DNA from: a virus
DNA: 26,039 nucleotides
Virus record (IMG/VR): IMGVR_UViG_3300021956_000072
Coordinates: 1-26,039 of that record
Strand: one strand, 5' to 3'
Below the pieces are notes generated by a model. The model was not told the origin of the DNA. It worked only from the letters and a program-made list of their open reading frames with translations, and did not search any database. The position numbers were made by a program, and so were the translations under genes. Position 1 is the first letter of the stretch. Each line of letters starts with the position of its first letter. Shown piece by piece: positions 6,735-25,356 of the stretch.

Positions 6735-8099
6735 ATGGCAAATAGATTTCAAAACTTTATCAGTAAGGTCGGCACTGGCATCAAGAATTTAGTCCCTGCA
6801 CCGAGTGACATCACTCAATGGCAATGGTACATACCGCAACGCAAGAAGCCAACACCGACCAACCTTGACACGTACATTGCACCCGTGCAATTGCAACGCT
6901 TTAGGCAAGACGTTTTAACGTGGCGAAGTGCAATGAGCCAAAGCGAGAATGCTTGGTATCCGCACCGAGTAGATATGCAACGAATGTATTACGATACAAT
7001 TCTCAATGCTCAAGTGACGGCGTGTATTGAAAAGCGCAAGAACTTGACAATGTTACGTGAGTGGTGTATCATTGACAAAGACGGCAACGAGAACGAACAA
7101 GTCAACGCACTATTCAACGGGATTTGGTTTGACGAATTTATCAACTACACACTTGAAGCAAAATTGTTCGGCTATTCGCTTATTCGTATCGGCGACATTG
7201 TGAACGGCGAGATCACTGAATGCAATTCAATTCGTAGGCATAACGTTTCGCCCGACCGCCGTAACGTAACACAATACACGTATTCAATTTCGGGAATACC
7301 ATTTGACGAAGAACCTTATTCATTCAATCATATTTTCGTAAGCACACCCAGTGACGTGGGCGTGTCGCCTTGTGGCTACGGCTTACTTTACAAGGTCGGC
7401 ATCTATGAAATAATGATGCGCAACTTAATGGGTTACAACGGCGACTACATTGAATTGTTTGGGATGCCTACACGTGTTGCCAAAACAACTAAAATGCAGG
7501 GCGACCCCGAGCGTTCACAACTTGAGTCAATGATGGAATTGATGGGTTCACGTGGTTGGGCGATATTAGACCCGACCGATGAACTTGAGTTCATTCAAAG
7601 TGGCGCAGTAGGTTCAAGCAATAACCCATACGAGAACCTTGAGAAACGTTGCGCAGGGTTTATTTCTAAAGTGTTGCTTGGTCACGCTGACGCACTCGAC
7701 TCAACAAGTGGCAAACTTGGGGCAACGCAGGGCGAAGAAAGTCCGACGGCACAAGCACTTGAAGATGTACGTTCGGTCGATGGTAAATTTGTCGAGAACG
7801 TAATTAATAAGCAATTAATACCAAAGTTGAGAGGTCTTGGTTTTAAGATACCCGACGGGTTTAAGTTTTGCTTTATGAACAACGGCGAGTTGCTTGAAGC
7901 AAAGCAACGCACGATGAACTCACAAAAGCAATTTGCTGACATCCTGCAAACGTTAAAGGGTGCAGGTTATGAAGTAGACGCACAATTTGTGAGCGAACAA
8001 TTAGATATGCCAGTCGAGAAAATGATGGCAATGCCATTTGCACCAATTAATAAATTCAGCGACAAAGTTCAAAACAAGTTGAACGAAATCTATGGCTAA
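6735..8099 (+). CDS. Portal protein (Mu gp29/DUF935-like)
   Basis: 454 residues. Features of the DUF935 portal family are the early segment RMYYDTILNAQVTACIEKRKNLTMLREWCI, the middle FGYSLIRIGDI and the later GRG-type ATLD region (GSRGWAILDPTDELEFIQSG...YENLEKRCAGFISKVLLGHADALDSTSGKLG). The portal forms the dodecameric channel at the head vertex through which terminase pumps DNA. The ATG at 6735 follows an 86-base gap with no clear signal. Its end overlaps the MuF gene by 8 bases, a portal-MuF order typical of Mu-like heads. Confidence 0.88.
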   Translation: MANRFQNFISKVGTGIKNLVPAPSDITQWQWYIPQRKKPTPTNLDTYIAPVQLQRFRQDVLTWRSAMSQSENAWYPHRVDMQRMYYDTILNAQVTACIEKRKNLTMLREWCIIDKDGNENEQVNALFNGIWFDEFINYTLEAKLFGYSLIRIGDIVNGEITECNSIRRHNVSPDRRNVTQYTYSISGIPFDEEPYSFNHIFVSTPSDVGVSPCGYGLLYKVGIYEIMMRNLMGYNGDYIELFGMPTRVAKTTKMQGDPERSQLESMMELMGSRGWAILDPTDELEFIQSGAVGSSNNPYENLEKRCAGFISKVLLGHADALDSTSGKLGATQGEESPTAQALEDVRSVDGKFVENVINKQLIPKLRGLGFKIPDGFKFCFMNNGELLEAKQRTMNSQKQFADILQTLKGAGYEVDAQFVSEQLDMPVEKMMAMPFAPINKFSDKVQNKLNEIYG

Positions 8100-13192: not shown

Positions 13193-14014
13193 ATGAAAAA
13201 AATCGACACGCAATATATACTTGCGAACACTGGGATGCCAATCAAAAGTGGTTCAATCGACCATATATTTAACGCATTAAGTGACACGTGCGTTGCAACG
13301 TTTAACACGCTCAACAATAACTATGACCCAACACGCCCGTGTGTGTTGTATGGTTTAGTCGATACGTCAACGGGTGGCACTTGTACAATTAGCGAGGGCG
13401 CAGTAATTTGGAACGAAGAACTTTTCTTTGTCCCTGCGACATCGTTCACAATTAACAACGTTGCCGTTGCAGTGATCTCGACAAGTTACGTTGTAGGCGC
13501 AAATGCAGACCCAGTGCTTATGACTGACGGCGTTAGTCGTAACGTTCACGCTATCCGTACCATTGAAATTGTTGACGGCTCAAGTGCAACACCAAACTAC
13601 GTTGCTGACTTAATCGACTTTATTTATGGCGATAGACGTGCGTTACTTGAAGAACACGACTATTCGGTTTCAATTACTGCACACTCCCCTGCGACAACTA
13701 CATTGCATACAATGACAATGGGACACGCAGGTGTTGTTTGGTTTTTATACGATAACCAAGTCACACCAAATGCAAGTGGTGGCGGTGGTACTGCGTCCTA
13801 TTTAACTTTTTATATTGAAGTAAATGGCACTAATATAATAAGCAAGGAGTTAAGTATTATAAGCGACGGGGGACGTAGAGATTTTACAATGCAAAAAGTG
13901 TTAAATGTAAACGTTGGCGACGTGATTGTTTTTAAAGCAGGTAATACTTTAAACTCCGCAGTCGTTCCCGTTGTTGGTCGTTTAGTTATTCAATCAAATA
14001 AAGTGACGGCTTAA
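13193..14014 (+). CDS. Probable distal tail or fibre-associated protein
   Basis: 273 residues from the ATG at 13193. An in-frame ATG at 13115 would overlap the previous gene by 77 bases and add non-matching residues. The sequence is beta-rich, poor in Lys and Glu, and carries a Gly-rich turn (NASGGGGTAS, about 205). The N-terminal KKIDTQYILANTGMPIKSGSIDHIFNAL suggests a domain that attaches to the baseplate, and the C-terminal half looks like a beta-sandwich. It is the last + strand gene before the minus-strand gene, and the two stop codons overlap (TTAA). The role is inferred from context. Confidence 0.45.
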   Translation: MKKIDTQYILANTGMPIKSGSIDHIFNALSDTCVATFNTLNNNYDPTRPCVLYGLVDTSTGGTCTISEGAVIWNEELFFVPATSFTINNVAVAVISTSYVVGANADPVLMTDGVSRNVHAIRTIEIVDGSSATPNYVADLIDFIYGDRRALLEEHDYSVSITAHSPATTTLHTMTMGHAGVVWFLYDNQVTPNASGGGGTASYLTFYIEVNGTNIISKELSIISDGGRRDFTMQKVLNVNVGDVIVFKAGNTLNSAVVPVVGRLVIQSNKVTA

Positions 14015-14268
14015 TACCCGTTCTTTGCGTTCTTTGGTCGCTTACGACTTTCGACTGGCATTTGCTCGAACGTGTCAAGTAGTTTTTGTTTGACATCGTC
14101 GGGCATCCTATCGACGAACTCCTGCAATGCGTAAGAACTTACATCGGATATGCTACGCTCTTTAAGATAAGCATAAGCCGTGAGCATTTTCTTGACATAA
14201 GAGGGTGGGTATGTTCGTATCATTCGCATCTTAATGTAGTGCGATTTGTCGGGGCGAGTATTTGACAT
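14011..14268 (-). CDS. Small minus-strand protein, possible ribbon-helix-helix regulator
   Basis: 85 residues from the ATG at 14268 (complement). An upstream in-frame ATG at 14316 would read through the promoter motif. It begins MSNTRPDKSHYIKMRMIRTYPPSYVKKML, then a pattern strand-helix-turn-helix (LKERSISDVSSYALQEFVDRMPDDVKQKLLDTF) like Arc/CopG-type DNA-binding proteins, and a basic tail (SRKRPKNAKNGY). It is the only minus-strand gene and lies at a divergent promoter region facing the protease/scaffold gene. A regulator of the capsid block is an attractive guess but unproven. Confidence 0.6.
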   Translation of the reverse strand: MSNTRPDKSHYIKMRMIRTYPPSYVKKMLTAYAYLKERSISDVSSYALQEFVDRMPDDVKQKLLDTFEQMPVESRKRPKNAKNGY

Positions 14269-14294
14269 TGCTAATTGGTGGCTTAATTTAATAC

Positions 14295-14302
14295 CAAAGA
14301 TA
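14295..14302 (-). promoter_or_regulatory. -7 promoter motif for the minus-strand gene (TATCTTTG)
   Basis: Read on the minus strand the bases give TATCTTTG, an exact TAnnTTTG, 26 bases upstream of the ATG at 14268. It faces away from the + strand motif at 14325-14332, so the two form a compact divergent promoter pair. No clear -33 element. Confidence 0.45.
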
Positions 14303-14324
14303 ATATAAAAAAACACGAATAGTA

Positions 14325-15527: not shown

Positions 15528-16520
15528 ATGGCTTTAGTTATTAATGACACGCAGTACGCTGGTACATTCGCAAGTTACTTTTGGTTACCTGCGACATTCT
15601 CAATGGACACAATTCAAAAAGGAATTGTTTACGTTCAAGACGGAATAAAAAAGAAGCACACAATCGGACGTGTGGACTTCTCTGACCCATTACAACCAAG
15701 AACACCGACACCAACGTCAAGTGGTACTTTCGTTGTAGATGGTCGTACATTATACCCACAAGATATGATGTGTTACACTGAATTTAACCCACGTGATTAT
15801 GAGCAACATTGGTTGGCTGAACAACTTTCTCCGACATTATTGGCTCGTGAGTTACCTATCACTGCGGAGAACTATATGATGCAAATTGCATTGAATAGAA
15901 CTTTCGAGAGCATTGAGGGTGCATTGTGGATGGGATCACTTGACTACGCAGGAAACTACGCAGTAGGTACACCACAATACCAATGGCAATTCTTTGATGG
16001 TTTCTTAAAAAAAATGGTTAATGATAGCAGTGTGTTACGACCATCAACTCCCGAAGTTGCAATTGACGTGACAAACATTGCTGACTCGTTTGACCAATTA
16101 TTGAACCTAATTGCAACAAACAAGAAAGCGTTATTGTCAAAACCAACACGCTATGAGAGAATGAAGTTCTTGGTGTCTATCAACACTGAACAAATTTATC
16201 ACACTTTTATCACGACATCACAAACTTTCAAGGGTGTGAATACTACGGATAGAGGTATTAACTTATACAAAGGTTATGAAGTAGTTCCCGTTGCAGGTAT
16301 GCCCGACGACACTATTGTGTTTACGGAGTCAATCAACGACGTAAGTTCAAACTTATACGTAGGTATGAACTCAATGGAAGATAACAATCTTCAGTTGATG
16401 CGTTTACAAAACAATTCTGAATTGTTCTTCTTTAAGGGCTTAATGAAATACGATACGCAGTATGGTTTCAGTGACCAAATTGCATTGTATACTACATTGA
16501 CTACTGGCGATTTTCAATAA
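15528..16520 (+). CDS. Major capsid protein
   Basis: 330 residues, directly behind the protease/scaffold. The composition and layout fit HK97-fold capsid proteins, with an E-loop-like early region and the later helix/strand pattern (LLNLIATNKKALLSKPTRYERMKFLVSINTEQIY...INLYKGYEVVPVAGMPDDTIVF...SELFFFKGLMKYDTQYGF). The ATG at 15528 follows an A-rich leader. The stop at 16518 is followed in the -1 frame by an open tail of ELREDGG repeats, so a minor, longer form is possible. Confidence 0.8.
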   Translation: MALVINDTQYAGTFASYFWLPATFSMDTIQKGIVYVQDGIKKKHTIGRVDFSDPLQPRTPTPTSSGTFVVDGRTLYPQDMMCYTEFNPRDYEQHWLAEQLSPTLLARELPITAENYMMQIALNRTFESIEGALWMGSLDYAGNYAVGTPQYQWQFFDGFLKKMVNDSSVLRPSTPEVAIDVTNIADSFDQLLNLIATNKKALLSKPTRYERMKFLVSINTEQIYHTFITTSQTFKGVNTTDRGINLYKGYEVVPVAGMPDDTIVFTESINDVSSNLYVGMNSMEDNNLQLMRLQNNSELFFFKGLMKYDTQYGFSDQIALYTTLTTGDFQ

Positions 16521-16594
16521 CCCCATCTTACGAGTTACGGGAAGATGGTGGGCGAGAATTACGAGAAGATGGAAGTAACGAATTACGCAACTAA
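16511..16594 (+). other. Possible -1 frameshift extension of the capsid protein (ELREDGG repeats)
   Basis: The capsid gene ends GAT TTT CAA TAA. If the ribosome slips one base back on the TTTT run at 16511-16514, translation continues as SITPSYELREDGG, then RELREDGS and NELRN to a TAA at 16592. The same tail type (ELREDGG, FELREDGG, FEIRG) ends the LysM gene at 23428-23811, in frame. Arg, Glu and Gly codons vary at third positions between copies (CGG, CGA, CGC, CGT; GAA, GAG; GGT, GGG, GGA) while the peptide stays constant, which argues for translation. A one-base assembly error in the T-run would explain it equally. The slip site lacks a full XXXYYYZ heptamer. Confidence 0.45.
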
Positions 16595-23117: not shown

Positions 23118-23431
23118 CACAATTCAACGACATACAAACCGACCAAGAAACGGCTGACTTATTTTTTAACTCATTCACGGGCGACTTCAATATTGTTGCA
23201 AGTGACCAAGCGCATATAGGCGACATCATTCAATCTTTTATGGGCGACTGGAAGCAATACCCAATGGTTGGCGTGGGCGTAGGTGCATACTTAAATTCAG
23301 TAGGTCAGCAACAAAGGTTAGTGCGTGAGTTAATCGTACAACTCAAAGCGGACGGCTACATTGTAGACAACCCACAAGTTAAAATACAAGACGGCAATAT
23401 CACAATCAACCCCAACGCTTACCGACAATGA
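23114..23431 (+). CDS. Baseplate wedge protein (gpW/gp25-like)
   Basis: 105 residues. The segment GDFNIVASDQAHIGDIIQSFMGDWKQYPMVGVGVGAYLNS resembles the small gp25/Mu gp46-type wedge proteins (a short strand, helix and 'P..G.G...L' turn). It overlaps its neighbours by ATGA. Gp25-like proteins initiate sheath assembly at the baseplate. The assignment rests on pattern and context. Confidence 0.65.
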   Translation: MTQFNDIQTDQETADLFFNSFTGDFNIVASDQAHIGDIIQSFMGDWKQYPMVGVGVGAYLNSVGQQQRLVRELIVQLKADGYIVDNPQVKIQDGNITINPNAYRQ

Positions 23432-23811
23432 TAAATACATTAGACACGACCCCCGTAAGTTTAAACTCGCAGGACGTACAACCAACGTCGTTGTATGGTC
23501 GCTATTTTTGTTTGACGGGTCAAAGCGTATACGATGTATGTTTGCAATTGTACGGGACGCTTGACGAACTTATTAACTTGATTAAGCAAAACAATTTTAG
23601 TGGCTTAAACGATACGAATATACAAGGTCGCCAAGTTATATTTGAAATTGTAAAAAGGCAGGACTCTTTGCTTGGCAAGTACAATCAACAAAACAATATA
23701 AACTACGCTACTATTTACATCAAACCAACACCACCGACAATGAACTATGAGTTGCGTGAGGATGGTGGTTTTGAGTTACGTGAGGATGGTGGTTTTGAAA
23801 TAAGAGGATAA
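23428..23811 (+). CDS. LysM-type tail protein X with C-terminal ELREDGG repeats
   Basis: 127 residues. Residues about 26-75 (YFCLTGQSVYDVCLQLYGTLDELINLIKQN...IQGRQVIFEI) form a LysM-like domain as in P2 tail protein X, which binds the tube-hub region. After a short linker (KPTPPTMNY) the protein ends with ELREDGG, FELREDGG, FEIRG (108-127). The same peptide tag is found behind the capsid gene in the -1 frame. It is the last of the ATGA-coupled baseplate run 22599-23811. Confidence 0.7.
   Translation: MINTLDTTPVSLNSQDVQPTSLYGRYFCLTGQSVYDVCLQLYGTLDELINLIKQNNFSGLNDTNIQGRQVIFEIVKRQDSLLGKYNQQNNINYATIYIKPTPPTMNYELREDGGFELREDGGFEIRG
23749..23808 (+). repeat. In-frame 24-bp tandem repeat (ELREDGGF)
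   Basis: Two nearly identical 24-base units code ELREDGGF, and a degenerate third unit codes EIRG, at the very end of the LysM gene. The related copies at 16532-16591 differ mainly at third codon positions. Confidence 0.75.
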
Positions 23812-23813
23812 AA

Positions 23814-25112
23814 ATGGCTGACTTAAAAGTTTCGCAGGAAAACGATTTGGGACTTGCAGGGATAGACGGCTCGGTTGAATATCGAGTTGTCAAAGCAGGT
23901 TCGACATATAAACAAAACTACGATGACCTATTGACGTGGATAGGTAGCAACGTTACACCTGCAACACCAACGTTGCAAGACACAATTGACCAAAGCAGGG
24001 TATTAACAAACAACAATTTCTACGTTGGTTTAATTAGTGGACAAGCAACCAGTGGCAACGAAAACATAGGCATCGGAACTGGCGCAATGTCGGGGGGTGG
24101 TAGTACAACTTCGTGTGTTGCAATCGGAGAATATGCAGGGCAAACAACTAACTTTAATGGAATAGGCATCGGATATTTTGCAGGGCAAGGAATGGCATTA
24201 AGTCAATATGTTACTGCAATCGGACGCAATGCGTTTCGTGGTGCAAGTTCGCTTTATGGTATTGCAATCGGATTGAATGCAGGTGCTTATCAAACTAATT
24301 TAGGGATATCAACAAGTAACAATATTAATATTGGGGTTGAAAGTGGAAACAATGCAAAAGGGTCGTTTGGTGTTTATTTAGGCAATCAAGCAGGTCTTTA
24401 TAGTTATAACGATTTCAATGTTTATGTTGGTGCATTAAGTGGCGCAGGTGCAACGGGCGACCGAAATATTGCACTTGGAACAAATACCTTATATCAAAAT
24501 GAGGGAAGCGATACCATTGCAATGGGTCACTATGCAGGATTGAGTAACACGGGCAACAATTGTTTTTTTGCAGGTTCTTATGCAGGTTATGACATTGAAA
24601 GTTACAACAACCCAAACACTGGTTCGAGCGTTATCGGTATAGGTTACCAAAGCGCAGGGGGAAACTATCAACCAAATGTGATTGCTTTAGGTGACTATGC
24701 AGGATATTTAAACGGGGGACTTGAATGCACTTTCATAGGTTTAAATGCAGGATATGGCAATGGCGAAGACAATTCAATAGGTATTGGGACAAACGCATTA
24801 GGAAGCAATAATGGTTCAAATGCAATAGGTATTGGTGTGAATGCAGGATATGGAAATCAAGGACAACAATGTTTTTTTATAGGATGGGACGCAGGAAATG
24901 GTAACGTTGCAAATAATGTTATTGCAATCGGACGTAATGCAGGTTCGGGAAATAATCTTGGAAATAGTTTTATTATTAGCAATGAATATATACCGACTTT
25001 TGCAACAAGCACCGATGCAAATAATTATTATAGTGGAAATGCGCCAAGTTCATCATCGACATATTTATATATGGATTTAAGTGACAACACAATTAAATGT
25101 TATAGAAATTAA
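23814..25112 (+). CDS. Tail fibre with about 19 beta-helix-like repeats
   Basis: 432 residues. A short N-terminal part (1-65, probably the attachment end) is followed by about 19 units of the form xxAIGxxAGxxNxG, spaced roughly 15-25 residues (67-385), rich in Gly, Asn and Ala. This pattern resembles YadA-head-like left-handed beta-rolls and occurs in trimeric fibres. The C-terminus (FIISNEYIPTFATSTDANNYYSGNAPSSSSTYLYMDLSDNTIKCY) is a different domain and may be the receptor-binding or capping end. No S74 chaperone domain is seen. Position after the baseplate genes agrees with a receptor-binding fibre. Confidence 0.75.
   Translation: MADLKVSQENDLGLAGIDGSVEYRVVKAGSTYKQNYDDLLTWIGSNVTPATPTLQDTIDQSRVLTNNNFYVGLISGQATSGNENIGIGTGAMSGGGSTTSCVAIGEYAGQTTNFNGIGIGYFAGQGMALSQYVTAIGRNAFRGASSLYGIAIGLNAGAYQTNLGISTSNNINIGVESGNNAKGSFGVYLGNQAGLYSYNDFNVYVGALSGAGATGDRNIALGTNTLYQNEGSDTIAMGHYAGLSNTGNNCFFAGSYAGYDIESYNNPNTGSSVIGIGYQSAGGNYQPNVIALGDYAGYLNGGLECTFIGLNAGYGNGEDNSIGIGTNALGSNNGSNAIGIGVNAGYGNQGQQCFFIGWDAGNGNVANNVIAIGRNAGSGNNLGNSFIISNEYIPTFATSTDANNYYSGNAPSSSSTYLYMDLSDNTIKCYRN
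24010..24966 (+). repeat. Degenerate protein-level repeats in the fibre gene
   Basis: About 19 consecutive units, such as VAIGEYAGQ, IAIGLNAGA, VIALGDYAG, IGIGVNAGYG and VIAIGRNAGSG. They are recognisable in the protein but strongly diverged at DNA level, with recurring words such as GCAATCGGA and AATGCAGG. Confidence 0.75.
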
Positions 25113-25122
25113 AAAAAATCAA

Positions 25123-25356
25123 ATGCAAATACAATTTATTAACCCGACCGACGTGGTCGTAGTTACCGAGAAAAAAGTGACCATTGAAAAGTTAACCATT
25201 AACGAATTGGTTGACCTACCTAACCGCAAAATGGTTGTGGCAAAGACAACCGAAGTTGGCACAATTGTACTTTGGAAAGATGCCGACTATGATGCAATTG
25301 GTCAATGGACTGATACCGATGTAATCGCACGAATTGAGCAACTATACGGCAATTAA
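25123..25356 (+). CDS. Small hypothetical protein (77 aa) after the fibre
   Basis: I use the ATG at 25123 (MQIQFINPTDVVVVTEKKVT) in place of an in-frame GTG at 25081, which lies inside the fibre gene. The product is small, beta-rich, with a segment (WKDADYDAIGQWTDTDVIARI) near the C-terminus. Small proteins of this kind follow fibre genes in many phages and may be fibre-related, but I do not recognise it. Confidence 0.6.
   Translation: MQIQFINPTDVVVVTEKKVTIEKLTINELVDLPNRKMVVAKTTEVGTIVLWKDADYDAIGQWTDTDVIARIEQLYGN

Follow-up and report, generated by a model that had tools for sequence, protein, structure and literature searches.

Results

Organization of the locus

The window, by which we mean the whole stretch of DNA analysed here, corresponds to a virus record of 26,039 bases in IMG/VR (IMGVR_UViG_3300021956_000072) and represents the structural half of a contractile-tailed phage, with genes for the large terminase, the portal, the head protease and the tail sheath among others. 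Its features of interest are collected in Table 1. The 0 frame of the capsid ORF ends with GGC GAT TTT CAA TAA, and we take its product to be an HK97-fold major capsid protein on the strength of fold comparison and of the PHROG structural families that it matches. When its AF2 model was compared with known structures by Foldseek, the matches were almost all HK97-type capsids, the best being 5wk1 of TW1 (E 9e-4). The model itself is of low overall confidence (mean pLDDT 50); the fold matches are nonetheless consistent.

Further downstream, a small ORF (23428-23811) lies directly before the fibre gene (23814-25112) and ends, in frame, with MNYELREDGGFELREDGGFEIRG followed by the stop codon. The first-pass annotation had called its product a LysM protein. 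This label did not survive a Pfam search, which returned no family at E <= 1, and “LysM-like” is retained below for a look-alike only.

Table 1. Features of the capsid and fibre loci, in positions of the window.
Feature	Position	Strand	Remarks
Major capsid protein gene	15528..16520	+	0 frame, 330 aa; phrog_11320, virion structural phrog_20525, phrog_1623
Putative -1 shift heptamer C_GAT_TTT	16508..16514	+	G_GAT_TTC in the related phage L004
-1 frame extension SITPSYELREDGGRELREDGSNELRN	16514..16594	+	Behind capsid stop 16518-16520
0-frame stop TAA	16518..16520	+	One codon past the heptamer
3' hairpin	16521..16550	+	Arms 16521-16529 and 16542-16550, 9 positions long, with one mismatch in the window
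-1 frame stop TAA	16592-16594	+	
LysM-like baseplate/tail protein	23428..23811	+	C-terminal tag YELREDGGFELREDGGFEIRG; function inferred solely from position and resemblance
ELREDGG tag of the tail protein	23746..23808	+	
Fibre protein	23814..25112	+	Anchor profile E 1e-19; relatives match phage tail fibre/tailspike families
Fibre N-terminal anchor domain MADLKVSQENDLGLAGIDGSVEYRVVKAGSTYKQNYDDLLTW	about 23814-23940	+	Common to the genes downstream of 49 tagged ORFs

Two other ORFs of the window deserve mention in passing. One, of 101 aa, is encoded on the minus strand (14011-14316) amid structural genes that all lie on the plus strand, and has only a weak Pfam match. The other (25081-25356, 91 aa) overlaps the end of the fibre gene and belongs to no family; its position hints at a fibre assembly helper.

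The -1 frame behind the capsid gene is conserved as protein

In all six frames of the window ELRED occurs at exactly two places, the -1 tail of the capsid gene and the ORF at 23428-23811, with no third copy, and the tag profile scores these places at 3e-16 and 1.5e-16, that is, above chance. The earlier claim that the ELREDGG tag stands both in the -1 frame and on the LysM-like protein thus held, and can be read directly from the sequence. From position 16514 the -1 frame begins with TCA ATA ACC CCA TCT TAC, continues through GAG TTA CGG GAA GAT GGT GGG and CGA GAA TTA CGA GAA GAT GGA AGT, and closes with AAC GAA TTA CGC AAC TAA; it contains no ATG, GTG or TTG upstream of the tag. Since the peptide is kept while its codons differ, a simple DNA repeat can be ruled out as the origin of the tag.

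A scan based on the capsid yielded 14 loci, among which the nearest distinct phages were L003 (capsid identity 96%) and L004 (89%); L016 is the same virus as L003 assembled from another sample, with identical tail DNA. Both distinct phages keep a -1 tail of equal length, SITSSYELREDGGRELREDGSNELRN in L003 and RIVPSFELREDGSRELREDGSNELRQ in L004. Relative to the window, the tail of L003 differs at 7 nucleotides and 1 amino acid and that of L004 at 21 nucleotides and 4 amino acids, as against 4.6 and 12.3 amino acid changes expected if the same substitutions were placed at random (P 0.003 and <2e-4, respectively). Neither of the two remaining frames keeps a comparable peptide. Because two other distinct phages preserve the frame and its changes are mainly synonymous, we conclude that the -1 frame is translated and is not the product of an assembly error. 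Its conservation under protein-level selection, which the first-pass annotation had proposed, is thereby shown, expression itself being unproven. That annotation had also named two observations that would refute it. The first, a fifth T joining the frames by misassembly, is excluded, since the frame recurs in four contigs and a TTTT run is lacking altogether in L004 (GGGGATTTCGAATAG). The second, relatives without an open -1 frame, is not met among the closest relatives, all of which keep it; more distant capsids (43-74% identical) have no tail and no matching fibre anchor either, and terminate two codons past a conserved Phe codon.

A putative shift site and a 3' hairpin accompany the frame

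The anatomy of the region around the capsid stop is likewise plain from the three sequences. The heptamer is C_GAT_TTT in the window and in L003 and G_GAT_TTC in L004, giving the general form N_GAY_TTY, and in all three the 0-frame stop lies one codon beyond it (G_GAU_UUC_GAA_UAG in L004). The G_GA(U)_UUY heptamer type is described in a recoding review, which counts among the working variants G_GU, used by T7 gene 10, and G_GA, used by insect flaviviruses, umbraviruses and others (PMC5009743). L004 fits this accepted G_GA type, whereas the site of the window and L003 is good only for the A-site tRNA: its P-site half (C_GA) is a poor match, and the Phe tRNA alone re-pairs well.

The heptamer is followed, after a spacer of 6 nt that meets the 5-9 nt criterion for a 3' structure, by a hairpin in identical register in the window, L003 and L004. 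Its minimum free energies are -12.6, -13.9 and -13.6 kcal/mol, with z scores of -1.8 to -2.8. Shuffles of synonymous codons in the -1 frame give the hairpins individual P values of 0.06, 0.008 and 0.035 and a joint one of about 3e-4, the joint value treating related sequences as independent. The hairpin of the window ranks within the bottom 1.8% of coding windows of 43 nt, and it is the strongest structure behind any stop among the 20 genes, the next reaching -7.6. Three of the nine pairs are altered on both sides in a compensatory manner, as is no pair in any slid register. With only three distinct sequences the shuffle control is weak (38 of 500 shuffles reach the observed level); both arms, moreover, lie in coding sequence.

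We infer that a programmed -1 frameshift, giving rise to a minor extended capsid protein, is the best reading of this arrangement; there are no expression or mass-spectrometry data, and slippage as such remains an inference. The first-pass annotation had suggested a minor extended form of this kind, comparable to 10A/10B of T7, and the heptamer type, the position of the stop and the hairpin at its 6-nt spacing support it without proving expression. Its more specific proposal of a slip on TTTT held only in part: the run is not conserved, and what is conserved instead is a Phe codon with a T before it.

The tag is paired with an anchor domain encoded immediately downstream

Relatives of the tag were gathered by pattern scans of IMG/VR and of bacterial genomes. 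The ELREDG repeat was found in many phages, almost always within the final 12-22 residues of a protein, and its carriers span many unrelated families. What they have in common is the next gene downstream, which encodes an N-terminal domain of about 45 residues with the consensus MADxKTSxE...LTGxELVRxVQxGxNxKxTxxxIAAL, hereafter the class-E anchor. An anchor-domain gene lies 0-22 nt downstream of 49 of the 56 distinct C-terminal ELRED tags, and this pairing of genes is shown. The seven exceptions are the three capsid tags and those of L134 (followed by an anchor-like gene below threshold), L130 (at a contig end), L033 (probably a chance match) and L146 (preceding a portal-like gene). Two ordinary tags go with two anchors in L096 and L120; in the window and L004 a single anchor accompanies two tags. 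Another frequent pattern-scan match, YEFREDGG, belongs to an unrelated terminase-like protein.

The proteins on either side of this joint point to the virion. Several fibres of tagged pairs match tail fibre, tail spike and related families among the PHROGs. The anchor core is predicted by AF2 to be beta-beta-alpha (pLDDT 85-92), and most of the best matches of its model among BFVD viral proteins were to phage fibres or pectate lyases (30-44% identity), none of them at E <= 0.001. The carriers are virion proteins, namely J-type central tail fibres, a distal tail protein and a protein of 103 aa. The last of these matches longer tail-fibre proteins over their N-terminal part (about residues 22-80). 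It looks like a fibre divided precisely where tag and anchor meet, and we regard this as the strongest hint, albeit an inferred one, that tag and anchor rejoin the two halves. That the tag docks fibres via the anchor domain is inferred from the gene pairing and from the matching classes described below, there being no binding data.

An AF2 model of a natural tag-stop-anchor read-through as one chain showed no docking, with the tag disordered at a pLDDT of about 50; a single chain cannot represent an oligomeric anchor. Foldseek searches of the tag and anchor model against the PDB gave nothing significant, and no relative of the tag was found in the PDB. In the INPHARED phages tblastn found neither the tag nor a significant class-E anchor, so that the relatives all derive from contigs of uncultivated viruses and from a small number of bacterial ones.

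Several occurrences outside the usual arrangement were seen. On the reverse strand of L146 (11310-11672) a second ELRED tag is found in a 102-aa ORF directly upstream of the 715-aa portal-like gene and without an anchor; the ORF also carries VVLTDDSGTIVLTDDTGTVIL repeats and may serve as a further mount in trans on the head or neck. In L040, L108 and L125 the ELRED repeats are internal to a protein of about 1000 aa and are succeeded by ...FDGDNTF..ADISHGDNL... (994 aa in L108; cut at the locus end in L040 and L125). On the reverse strand of L302 a variant tag, YALREDGGRALREDGGYEIRD, ends an 899-aa protein before a KTSDE anchor at 7956; such ALRED variants lie outside the tag scans.

Two classes of tag match two classes of anchor

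Upstream of a second type of anchor, MADxKISxL...LPIVQSG.TKK (class L), proteins end in hydrophobic repeats such as NLELEDGNDLLLEDGGFILLEAGNG, LLLESGDNLLLESGDRILLE and NLETENGDNLVQEDGGLLLLE. The scan for class-L anchors was run regardless of tags, the criterion for a tail being at least 2 repeats within the last 36 residues of the upstream ORF. Tails resembling LLxEDG were present upstream of 25 of 69 KISxL anchors, compared with 12 of 1453 control ORFs. The ELRED tag was not seen upstream of any of the 69 KISxL anchors, nor was a hydrophobic tail seen upstream of any of the 49 class-E anchors. Within the anchors, E follows K-T-S-x in 47 of 49 class-E members and the R of ELVR is present in 37 of 49, against 1 of 74 in class L; part of the E/L difference stems from the pattern with which class L was searched. 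The two classes of tag and anchor thus match without exception in this sample, and this is shown. The pairing is strong and is no proof of contact, as co-inheritance of the two genes as a cassette could also produce it. Matches of the class-L tag in the PDB proved to be ankyrin LLLE-G repeats, a chance resemblance.

Among more distant capsid relatives, 49 records contain no ELRED tag and no class-E anchor, the only anchor being one of the other class; identical searches recover both tags and the anchor in the window. These records suggest that the capsid tag is confined to the lineage with the class-E fibre, with the reservation that many of them are fragments in which absence is no proof. In one such relative, L010, a LysM-like protein ending in NYILQENGRFILL precedes a KISQLPAAT fibre, and the capsid tag is absent.

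Discussion

A model for tag-mediated mounting of fibres

The role of the tag, which the first-pass annotation had left open, can now be inferred to be fibre docking. In the model that we propose, some ribosomes would slip back by one base at GAT_TTT (16509-16514), with help from the hairpin (16521-16550) and from the stop that lies a single codon further on, and would then read 26 more codons, thus producing a minor capsid protein with two and a half ELREDG repeats at its end. The phage's own fibre (23814-25112) would dock, through its N-terminal anchor domain, on these repeats, which would thus act as a tag. Carried by the LysM-like tail protein, the same tag would hold the fibre at the tail tip; its capsid copies would fix some fibres to the head as well. 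The frameshift would keep the dock rare, as an in-frame tag would sit on every subunit. We lean towards this account as a whole, including slippage, tag-anchor docking and fibres that are also on the head, by no more than a modest margin; head-borne fibres in particular are inferred without any virion data.

A bolder reading is that the tag and anchor form a widespread modular plug-and-socket connector in tailed phages, by which short C-terminal tags of 8-residue repeats on any virion protein bind a small N-terminal fibre anchor, and that in the lineage of the window's phage a programmed frameshift tags a set fraction of the capsid subunits, which mount the tail fibre on the head as well. The connector would have at least two specificity classes, the charged ELREDG with KTSxE...ELVR and the hydrophobic, LLxEDG-like tails with KISxL. 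We can see this reading being borne out or refuted with equal ease.

Three other explanations need to be weighed against the model. Termination at the TAA could be followed by reinitiation at the overlapping ATA (A-TAA), which has the -1 register of ATGA-like overlaps and would release a free 25-aa tag peptide. In favor of this, the ATA overlaps the stop in the window, in L003 and in L004; a 36-aa tag protein in L138 begins at a GTGA overlap behind a 386-aa ORF; and other phages carry tag proteins of 37-60 aa with their own starts. However, ATA very rarely serves as a start codon, ATG, GTG or TTG is available to the other small tag proteins found, the heptamer, spacer and hairpin would be left unexplained, and a bare tag without a carrier would offer nothing for the fibre to be attached to. 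We consider reinitiation unlikely. Still less credible, and in our opinion very improbable, is a decaying relic, that is, an ancestral in-frame capsid tag that was put out of frame by an indel and is not expressed. The tail-less capsids of distant relatives, ending two codons past the conserved Phe, could be cited for it, but in three lineages the -1 frame is still open and of unchanged length, and amino acid change is far below random.

The most serious rival, which we still consider fairly unlikely, accepts the frameshift and questions the dock. It is possible that the extension protects the C-terminus, binds the cell surface or aids assembly in some other way, with tag and anchor adjoining merely as a cassette; adjacency of genes alone does not prove contact, and AF2 showed no docking. 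Against this stand the exceptionless match of tag and anchor classes in the sample, the nature of the carriers, which are virion attachment proteins and a split-fibre adaptor, and the fact that the capsid tag lies far from the anchor gene and yet occurs only in the lineage with the class-E fibre.

Relation to known systems

The frameshift that we favor has its closest parallel in 10A/10B of T7, where a -1 slip near a T-preceded Phe codon close to the 3' end of the major capsid gene likewise adds a short extension to a minority of subunits; gene 10A ends with GTG GTT TTC AAA GTG GAG TAA, the window with GAT TTT CAA TAA. The T7 extension differs in sequence, that of the window being a short repeat tag which also occurs on a tail protein and has a link to a fibre anchor, and the window has a local hairpin in place of the unexplained long-range element of T7 (PMC5009743). 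Programmed frameshifts also add Ig-like extensions to capsid or tail proteins in T3, Lactobacillus A2 and Listeria A118/A500/PSA (PMC5009743). There, too, a promiscuous accessory module that is found in frame elsewhere is appended to the C-terminus of a virion protein, but the module in the window is a repeat peptide of 20-25 residues with a partner domain in a neighboring gene, and the 26-residue extension is too short for an Ig-like fold. The pea enation mosaic virus site, G_GAU_UUU_UGG_UAG, shares the heptamer type and the stop one codon downstream, and there the stop three bases beyond the site matters (PMC5009743); this being a eukaryotic RNA virus, the resemblance is one of layout only.

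As to the fibres, gp22 of crAss001 is a trimeric fibre docked by its N-terminus on a gp38/gp39 hub (PMC10172136), and the anchor profiles give it weak matches at residues 28-54/57 (E 0.36 and 0.015). The head fibres of crAss001, gp21 and gp29, differ from our model in attaching straight to the capsid through their own N-termini, with no capsid tag involved. A profile search found no statistically supported tag in the hub proteins; the C-terminus of gp39 (RITEDSILRSTEDDNFRVEA in L487), part of the hub that docks gp22, looks tag-like by eye and receives no support from the profiles.

Frameshift-extended capsids as such, including those of T7 and T3, have been known for decades, their purpose being mostly unclear. 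What would be new, docking being inferred, is that the extension serves as a docking tag which other proteins share and whose partner domain can be identified. Since this partner is encoded in the same genome, the purpose of the extension, namely the recruitment of fibres to the head, is directly testable. A search of the open-access literature for ELREDG and LLLEDG (subscription papers being outside its scope) returned nothing relevant, and within these limits the tag-anchor connector appears to be undescribed. If docking is true, tag-anchor pairs in dozens of unrelated phages would explain fibre swaps between unrelated tails, the two classes would suggest a simple code for fibre attachment to phage particles, and the tag would allow fibre mounts to be predicted among genes that lack any other annotation.

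Very small proteins (36-57 aa), mostly tag and with a start codon of their own, were encountered in L023, L049, L052, L128, L135, L155 and L138 (reverse strand 1143-1268), the last of which was also considered as a second -1 case and ruled out because its GTG start overlaps the stop. Conceivably, such proteins are minimal fibre mounts.
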